Source of the DNA: Patellaria atrata CBS 101060
Taxonomy: Eukaryota; Ascomycota; Dothideomycetes; Patellariales; Patellariaceae
Assembly: GCA_010093705.1 (NCBI GenBank)
Contig: MU006110.1
Location: 63,654-127,653 of the forward strand
Reading direction: 5' to 3'
DNA: 64,000 nucleotides
A program made the translations under genes and the position numbers. Shown here one piece after another: positions 55,546-58,871 of the stretch. Each line of letters starts with the position of its first letter. Position 1 is the first letter of the stretch. The notes under the pieces are model-generated. The model made no database searches and was not told the DNA's origin. It worked only from the letters and a program-made list of their open reading frames with translations.

Positions 55546-58500
55546 TTAGTCACTGTCGTTCAACTTGTGGTAATCCACAATCTCGGAATAGCTATGTCCG
55601 GCTTCCGTTAGCCTTACGTTGGGATTACATACTCGGAGAATGAATGGTATACATACCACATGATCTTCCAGGTGTCAACGGGAAGGTCAGCATCGGTGAA
55701 TCCCCAGTCGAACTTCTTATCGGCAACAGGTTCATCACTTGGGTCGTGATAGGGAGCAAGGTATGGGTGAGCTAATGCTTGACTGGCATCAATCCGTTTC
55801 CGGGGATCCATGACAAGCATCTTTTCTAAAAGATCAATTGCTGTGTTCCGTCAGAGTCACTTCTCTCCTTAACTCGGTGCTCAGCATACCCAAAGGATCT
55901 GCACCCTCAAAGACGGTGCTAAGTGGTTGTGGTTCACGTTTCGGAAGCGACTCCACGAATTTCCGTGTCTATCATTACTGTCAGCGGGTTCACATAGCCG
56001 GCCGCAGTATATCGTACATTCTCACTGCTGATCATATGGATTACATCATCCGATGGACTCCCTAGAAGATCGGTAATAATCTGGAGTTGGTGGACATGGT
56101 CTCTTCCTGGAAAGATAGGCTTTTGCCTTAGCATCTCCGCGAGGATACATCCTGCACTCCAGATATCAACCTCTACATTATAATTTCGCCAGGCGAGCAT
56201 TATTTCCGGAGCCCTGTAATGTCGTGTGGTAACATAACCAGTCATTTCGGGGTCTACGATTCGGGACAGACCGAAGTCGCAAATTTTAAGATCGCAGTTC
56301 TCGTTAATAAGAATGTTACTGGGCTTGAGATCTCGATGAACGATACCGGTAGAGTGAACGTATTTCAAACCTCGCTATACATAGTAAGTTAAGCACTATA
56401 ACCGGGCTTTCTGTTATCTACACACCAATATTTGATATATGAAGTACTGAACGATTCCTTTCTCTAAAAGCTGACTTTGGAGTACGCGATGAAGATCACA
56501 TCCTAGGAGCTCCGTGACGAAATAACTATCACTCTGGAATTAGTAAAATTCACACCAACAACCCTTTTTCAAACGTACATATCTTCTAACGGAGAAATAT
56601 ATATGTCACTAAGGGTAATAACCTGGAAATTGTCAGCTTGTCGGGTGTTTTGAGAATAAGGCCACGAACGTTTTCGTGTTGGATCTCTTTGAGGAGCTTT
56701 AACTCGCGATATGTACGTTTCGCTAGAACGGGGTTGTCGAAAGGTTTCAGAATCTTCTTGATGGCAACATGTCGTCCAGTAAGTATGTCTTTGGCCTTAC
56801 TGCGGAAATGTCAGCACTAAATGTGTGGTCTAAGTAACGGGGAAGAACACAAACCAAACGAGGCCGAAAGTGCCCATGCCAACTGGCTGCAGTTCAACAT
56901 ATCTTTCCAATTATTTCAGTAATGCAATCAGTGAGCCAGTCCCCATATTCTCTTACCTTCTCGTGAGTTCAAATGATGTACCAAAGACATAGGTACACAT
57001 AAAATCGGAGTTAATGGATACTTCTCCGTTTGATTTGCTTTCATTCATTTCTATATCGGCCGTTTCTTTCACACTTTCGTCGGGATCATTATCATATATA
57101 GTGTGATCGGTCGTCGGCTTCAGATCCGTGAAAAAAGTCTCCTTGCTGGGAGAGAAATTTAAATAAGGCGGACACGTCGGCAGGACATTGATCTTGCTAG
57201 CAGTAGAATGATACTGACTTTGAGCTACATCGGGTACGGTCCATTCGAGGAGACGCTCTTTCTGCGCTGGTACGGTCCAGGGAATCGTGGTTGTGGGTTC
57301 TTGATGATGAGAAACCAATTTCTGGATTTTATATTGCCACCTACTGCTATGTCTGGTATTAGGAAATTTGGGGGTCTTCGCGAGCTGTGTGCGGTGAATG
57401 CGGACGATTCGGATTGTGCTCCTATCGCTGCGTAATCTTTTGTGAAGCGCATTAATGCCAGAATCATTACTATAATCCATATCGTCTGCCCCTCGTTTCG
57501 TCAGGGTCTTGGGCATGTAGTTGTGCGCTGATATCTCGTCCGGACGGTATGGTAGCGGCAACGGTTTGCGAGCAGCGTCAAACCATATGTTGCATACAGA
57601 ACTAGGTTTAGTGAGATAAGAATCACAAGCGATTGAAAAAACTCCTTACCATGAACTACCGCCGCCTTTATGCGGTTCGAATGTTGTAGATTTGCAACCA
57701 GGTCTAGGACACCTGTTTGAGCCCCTCCAATCATACTGGCCTATGATTATCGCCATTGTAATTCTCATCCCTGGTATAAGTGTCTCGCTATCCTCATGGC
57801 CAGAGATATCCTGCGTACTGTCCATAGAGTTGAAAAGTTCAAACTCACCAGCTAGAACCTTTTCATAGCCTGGTCCATTTCTAAACTGTTCCACAAGAAC
57901 AGCTCGGAGTTTCTGAAATCTTTTAGTTTCAATGACGTAGATGACAACATATCTTGGAGTCTTACACCCCAAGTATACTCTGAGGGGACTGGAAATACAC
58001 GTCCCATAGCATCCTCAAATCGTACTGGTTCTTGGAACCATGTGTACTGCAAATTCGGTACAGGACCGGAAGTCTGAATATCCGTCAAGATAGTGATGAT
58101 TTTCAAGTTCGAGTTCCAAATGTTTTTAGTGAGTTCGATGAGTTGCCTTAATTGCGGAAGCATATCCCTATGATCTACTCAGTATCCTCACTTCTTCAGT
58201 ACAGTCAAAATTTCACATCTTACCGTGTTACCAACTTCGAGAGTCGGATTAATATTGAATTGTTGCTCCGCGTAAGAATATCGCCTTGGATCACAAGCTC
58301 GTGCGTGGTCGCAAGAGCTGTACTTACGCTCTCAATACCGCTACTTATGTCCATTCGAGCTTTACCTGTTTCTTCCACTGCCATAGAAGCTGACTTCCTA
58401 GAAAACCTCAGTCTTTTCTTACCTTACCAGGTTTAGGCCAACTTACAGTCCCTCGGTCATTAGTCTCATGTTCAGACTCCCCACATGAGCTATCAGGTAC

Positions 58501-58871
58501 GCTCTCAAATTAGAAACCTCATCTGCCATCTTAAAACGCCATTTTACTTTATCTCCGATTCTCTTCACTGTCGCTCTCCTAGAGGTCTGCTCGGGAGCAT
58601 CGGTAAGACTCTCAAACTTCTTCAACTTTGCTGCAAACTCGTCTAGGGGATATTGACACATGAGGGCGGCGACCTTAATGCTATTTGTAACTGCTTCGCG
58701 GCCGGGTGGGCACGGGAGATGCTCGATCTCTCGAAGAGCCCGTTGAAGGCCATGGAGTTCGAGTATTAGCTCACGGTATTCTGCTACGGAGGAGCCCTGG
58801 AGAGATGATGTGATATCCGCAATCAATTTACCAACAGCGATAAAGTCACCAACCGAAAACCCAAAAGACAT
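55546..58871 (-). CDS. Chimeric ubiquitin-like-domain / Hog1-type MAP kinase protein
   Basis: Thirteen exons with consistent GT-AG phases give a 900-residue protein. Residues 1-142 ([20 protein letters not shown]...) are the helical N-terminus of a large fungal family. Residues about 240-325 ([33 protein letters not shown]) are its ubiquitin-like domain. C335, C340, C355 and C358 ([15 protein letters not shown]) form its zinc-ribbon-like end. A linker of about 190 residues leads into a full Hog1/p38 kinase from about 554: P-loop GMGTFGLV (578-585), K600, HRD at 692-694, DFG at 712-714, TGY at 724-726, and the C-lobe [20 protein letters not shown]. It ends [11 protein letters not shown]. Exon 5 (56957-57601) spans both parts. 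Exons 1-5 are 58447-58871, 58224-58397, 57966-58167, 57650-57912 and 56957-57601. The alternative is two overlapping genes, with kinase start at 57000. The classical HOG1 should exist elsewhere. Confidence 0.82.

Follow-up and report, generated by a model that had tools for sequence, protein, structure and literature searches.

A predicted in-frame fusion of a fungal ubiquitin-like-domain protein with a Hog1/p38-type MAP kinase in Patellaria atrata

Hog1-type MAP kinases (MAPKs) are activated by a MAPK kinase (MAPKK) on a TGY motif, and the specificity of stress MAPKs comes from separate docking partners and scaffolds. Fungal proteins with a ULD_2 ubiquitin-like domain usually end in a short tail. 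In Aspergillus nidulans the MAPKK PbsB has both Hog1-type MAPKs, SakA (379 residues) and MpkC (415 residues), as substrates, and the same account states that more than one stress MAPK has been reported from very few fungi (PMC6205964). Kinase domains joined to other signalling modules are described from the Sordariales, where one report gives 12 NLRs with a CHK2-like kinase domain, nine of them with the kinase at the C-terminus, and proposes that they are decoys (PMC12258605).

The window analysed here is a stretch of 64,000 nucleotides from P. atrata CBS 101060 (assembly GCA_010093705.1, contig MU006110.1, positions 63,654 to 127,653 of the forward strand), and the original prediction placed within it a gene of 13 exons with consistent phases that joins a ubiquitin-like-domain protein to a MAPK. 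An exon-by-exon reconstruction arrives at the same limits (58871-55546, minus strand) and the same phases, with 13 exons and 12 introns, all 12 of them GT-AG and 47-65 nt long and in agreement of phase at every junction, running from an ATG at 58871 to a stop codon at 55548-55546 (Table 1). The frame had been given as 900 residues, it is indeed a single open frame without a stop but comes to 898 residues in the reconstruction, and the single 645-bp exon that was said to bridge the two halves was recovered with no stop under the predicted splicing. The only run of N found in a search across the window is at 9886-9995 (110 N), leaving the fusion gene free of assembly gaps, and the RIP indices of the gene (0.82 and 1.08) are near those of the window (0.78 and 1.15).

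Table 1. Positions, within the window, of the exons of the predicted fusion gene and of the features they encode.
Feature	Position	Strand	Content	Basis
Exon 1	58447-58871	-	ATG at 58871; N-terminal region, residues 1-141	reconstruction
Exon 2	58224-58397	-		reconstruction
Exon 3	57966-58167	-	ubiquitin-like domain, first part	reconstruction
Exon 4	57650-57912	-	remainder of ubiquitin-like domain; Cys pair C335/C340	reconstruction
Exon 5	56957-57601	-	645 bp; second Cys pair, linker, kinase start	reconstruction
Exon 6	56855-56902	-	glycine-rich loop	reconstruction
Exon 7	56670-56799	-	catalytic Lys (AIKK), then YREL	reconstruction
Exon 8	56579-56622	-		reconstruction
Exon 9	56426-56525	-		reconstruction
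Exon 10	56018-56374	-	activation lip	reconstruction, motif check
Exon 11	55890-55968	-		reconstruction
Exon 12	55657-55840	-	presumed common docking region (DPSDEP)	reconstruction, motif check
Exon 13 with stop codon	55546-55591	-		reconstruction
ULD_2 domain (PF22893)	57742-58034	-	residues 245-324; interrupted by intron 3 (57965-57913)	Pfam
Cys4 zinc-ribbon-like module	57592-57711	-	C335-x4-C340-x14-C355-x2-C358, residues 335-358	sequence inspection
Open linker	57007-57549	-	residues 373-553, 181 codons; no Pfam family, no confident structure	
ATG of M540	57046-57048	-	possible start of a 359-residue kinase-only product; purine at -3	
Protein kinase domain (PF00069)	55758-56901, introns included	-	residues 571-850	Pfam

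The genes in the window mark it as fungal DNA. Of its open frames, 119 reach at least 70 codons with little overlap among them. Pfam was run on 20 open frames and matched 10, including Rad4, NOG1, transportin-3/importin-13, Zn2Cys6, Fungal_trans and Bys1. The Bys1 match (Blastomyces yeast-phase-specific protein, E 6.3e-8) is an ORF on the minus strand at 59638-60057, directly upstream of the fusion gene, and downstream of it lies a 653-codon frame, also on the minus strand (50670-52628), with no Pfam match at 0.001. The G+C content is 0.44-0.45 at 54001-64000 and 0.44-0.53 in the rest of the window, with its peak at 12-14 kb.

Read from the DNA, the predicted protein is ordered as an N-terminal, probably helical region, a ULD_2 domain, a Cys4 zinc-ribbon-like module, a linker of about 180 residues and a complete p38/Hog1-type kinase. 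The ubiquitin-like domain that had been proposed is recognised by Pfam within the 898-residue model as ULD_2 with an E value of 3.7e-13 and 49.9 bits against a cut-off of 24.5. All four cysteines of the proposed Cys4 module are likewise present, and Pfam names no family for it, the top match being IBR at E 0.11, under the cut-off. The module is completed only by splicing, as intron 4 (57649-57602) falls between its two cysteine pairs and the acceptor of that intron completes it; retention of intron 4 would drop the second cysteine pair and end the protein immediately. For the N-terminus the original prediction had claimed helices, and an all-helical structure is what AlphaFold, run without an alignment, predicts for exon 1, although at low confidence (mean pLDDT 47.9). 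The N-terminal 240 residues or so match no Pfam family above the cut-off (a weak DUF632 match alone, E 0.45, lies under it), the N-terminus has no match in PADLOC, and the ULD half has none among PDB sequences. A link of this first part to STAND/NLR architectures had also been suggested; it finds no backing in the Pfam matches, which include neither a NACHT nor an NB-ARC domain, nor any N-terminal domain known from STAND proteins.

The second half is more readily placed. A complete TGY-type Hog1/p38 MAPK had been proposed, and the Pfam kinase profile is matched over its whole length (positions 1-263 of 263, E 8.1e-66), the activation lip reads TGY at residue 722, and the closest of the listed solved structures are p38alpha. 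Of 229 sequences of solved structures that passed 1e-60, the best 60 are all p38alpha, with no fungal Hog1 among those 60, and to one such chain (3oef_X) the kinase half is identical at 180 of 328 aligned residues. The glycine-rich loop, the catalytic motifs and DPSDEP, which we take to be the common docking region, are all intact, and judged from its sequence the kinase half thus looks to be of Hog1/p38 type and catalytically competent. It retains eight introns, and therefore a normal gene with introns is its probable source, rather than a retrocopy. The N-terminus that is presumably usual for fungal Hog1 seems to align from residue 553 onwards with the initiator methionine changed to asparagine; a search of the open-access literature for that N-terminus found none in print.

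Whether these two halves make one protein depends largely on the linker within exon 5. The base composition of the linker predicts a stop in 5.0% of its codons, which gives a probability of 9.2e-5 that 181 codons are open by chance, and none of 408 stretches of this length was open in putatively intergenic DNA, sampled in overlapping 10-nt steps on both strands of nine hand-picked regions. The argument would weaken if the ULD protein had a long natural tail: with no more than the last 61 codons intergenic, the probability of their being open would be about 4%. Codon usage places the linker between coding and non-coding DNA, with a codon score that is exceeded by 13 of 156 non-coding windows and undercut by 11 of 95 known coding windows, whilst its in-frame advantage is exceeded by 30 of the 156 and lies above that of 6 of the 95. 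A frame of the linker on the reverse strand that contains 4 stops reaches a z of 2.15 against shuffles, compared with 2.17 for the predicted frame. Such a bias suits a fast-evolving tail and is no proof of coding. AlphaFold without an alignment gives exon 5 no confident fold (mean pLDDT 38.1), where a low pLDDT from a run of this kind is a weak sign of disorder. MAPK docking motifs in the linker were considered as evidence and set aside, the patterns applied being those we assume to define such motifs: there is one match to a general pattern, at least one is found in 542 of 1000 shuffles, and no motif of the MEF2A type occurs. The linker has two S/T-P sites against a shuffle mean of 3.3.

A single joined protein is the most economical reading of the DNA, since with the splicing as predicted the frame runs from the first half into the second without meeting a stop. 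The preferred explanation goes further, to one real fusion gene of 898 residues in which the N-terminal module tethers or regulates a HOG-type MAPK, and is held here at a probability of roughly 0.47, a little short of even. The in-frame fusion as it had been predicted stands in its gene structure and in its domain identities, whereas one protein, although the most economical outcome, is unproven given the alternative introns that can be drawn within exon 5.

These introns are central to a competing explanation, somewhat unlikely in our judgement, in which the one locus makes two products. The first would be a ULD/zinc protein cut short by early polyadenylation or by alternative splicing, the second a 359-residue Hog1-type kinase beginning at M540 and driven by a promoter within exon 5. 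A kinase of that length would have an ordinary Hog1-like size, close to the 379 residues of SakA and the 415 of MpkC (PMC6205964). There are three frame-shifting candidates in exon 5, two of them of ordinary length, at 57583-57528 (56 nt, score 9.3, giving a ULD product of 379 residues), 57405-57347 (59 nt, score 8.9, 421 residues) and 57583-57486 (98 nt, score 11.1, 360 residues ending CSVCNI). An earlier comparison of these with the 12 model introns was circular, as the matrices had been trained on the same 12, and held-out scoring erases most of the apparent gap: the model introns then score 5.5-11.6, the candidates fall within this range, and the score by itself therefore does not dismiss them. 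However, comparable candidates (45-70 nt, score at least 8.8) are present in real coding blocks of 645 nt elsewhere in the window, at least one in 4 of 17 blocks and at least two, as in exon 5, in 3 of 17, thus their presence in exon 5 is nothing unusual for a real exon. The donor at 57405 (2.8) is also weaker than any of the held-out model donors (3.3 or more). A simple branch pattern does not discriminate, because three model introns, those at 57965 and 57649 and intron 1, themselves lack a match to it. Intron retention offers another route to a shortened first product, the frame ending at GGGSSW if intron 4 is retained and, from the ORF list, directly after FELTRR if intron 5 is; the model acceptor of intron 4 (held-out score 4.6) is moreover outscored by sites of 5.7 and 6.0, whose use would lengthen the intron to 180 and 303 nt. 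On the side of the kinase, a TATATA at 57100, 52 nt upstream of the ATG of M540, together with that usable ATG with its purine at -3, would fit a former or still working kinase promoter, yet this hexamer is expected 0.22 times by chance in 645 nt of one strand and ATGs in other frames come before M540 in exon 5. The intermediate codon bias of the linker also fits two products, but its roughly 180 open codons would then be left unexplained, save for the some 4% allowed if the last 61 alone are intergenic.

The joined frame could also have no function at all, as a recent and neutral read-through fusion or a strain-specific accident with little or no expression. A single sequence, the present one, is all that the fusion is known from, the coding bias in its linker is weak and a promoter-like remnant may sit there, all of which would fit such an accident; the open exons, the intact splice sites and catalytic motifs, the RIP indices near those of the window and the lack of any N run close to the gene argue against it and make it quite improbable. 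Less probable again, and given little weight here, is that the MAPK copy serves as an integrated bait for viral proteins or effectors directed against MAPKs of the HOG pathway, with the N-terminal module passing on the signal. We know of no such attacker, Pfam recognises neither NACHT nor NB-ARC nor an effector domain in the protein, and the intact catalytic motifs would be needless in a pure decoy. A precedent does exist in the fungal NLRs that carry a fused kinase domain, for which a decoy role has been proposed, and like nine of those 12 the present fusion has its module first and its kinase last (PMC12258605).

If the preferred reading of one fusion gene is followed, its most likely origin would be that an intron-bearing Hog1-type gene came to sit head-to-tail behind a ULD gene, with the stop of the ULD gene then lost, so that its last exon and the first kinase exon became one. 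The HOG-pathway MAPKK would presumably switch the kinase on through the TGY lip. The N-terminal module, acting through a flexible linker, may be a tether for localisation or for binding of a partner, and such a tether could restrict this copy of the MAPK to a particular complex or control access to it. It is in this sense that we infer the ULD/zinc module to position or regulate the MAPK. A wider proposal is unlikely as it stands, though not far-fetched: that there is a conserved fungal class of signalling proteins whose Hog1-type MAPK, catalytically competent, carries a covalently attached ubiquitin-like/zinc module and thereby has targeting or sensing built in, unlike the usual stand-alone stress MAPKs.

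Should the fusion be real, a ubiquitin-like/zinc module built into a MAPK would offer a natural test of whether tethering alone rewires a HOG-type kinase, and it would hint at the role of the poorly understood ULD_2 proteins of fungi. Whether the kinase is an extra stress MAPK or the sole one would be informative either way, because reports of a second stress MAPK come from very few fungi (PMC6205964).

Relatives of the fusion were sought in several collections. As expected, no relative was confirmed among viral contigs, scanned with the two halves and the linker, or among contigs of prokaryote genomes, scanned with the two halves. A tblastn search of plasmids with a 465-residue query, from the Cys4 module into the kinase, gave 422 records, none of which reaches 60% identity or spans 80% of the query; among the best 20 of the 422, bacteria account for 19 and an archaeon for one, and most carry a protein kinase annotation. 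Within the window tblastn found no second copy of either half, with three weak matches alone (E 3.6 to 8.7). The component families are known; their combination in a ULD-MAPK fusion is not among the matches listed from the open-access literature, which gives limited evidence of absence.

Set beside the known systems, the locus shares parts with each. With fungal ULD_2 (PF22893) proteins it has in common a ULD_2 domain above the Pfam cut-off, and its N-terminus and Cys4 tail look to us like those presumably typical of the family, but where these proteins usually stop after a short tail the fusion runs on into a MAP kinase. With the Hog1/Sty1/p38 kinases (SakA/HogA, MpkC and animal p38) it has in common a complete kinase domain, the TGY lip and the docking region. 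SakA and MpkC, however, are short separate proteins of 379 and 415 residues, whereas the fusion has about 550 residues ahead of its kinase and 898 in total (PMC6205964). The Sordariales NLRs with a CHK2/PRD-4-like kinase, C-terminal in 9 of the 12 described, are alike in that a conserved signalling kinase is joined to another module, but those are NLRs with a kinase of CHK2 type, whilst the P. atrata fusion has a MAPK as its kinase and no recognised NLR core (PMC12258605).
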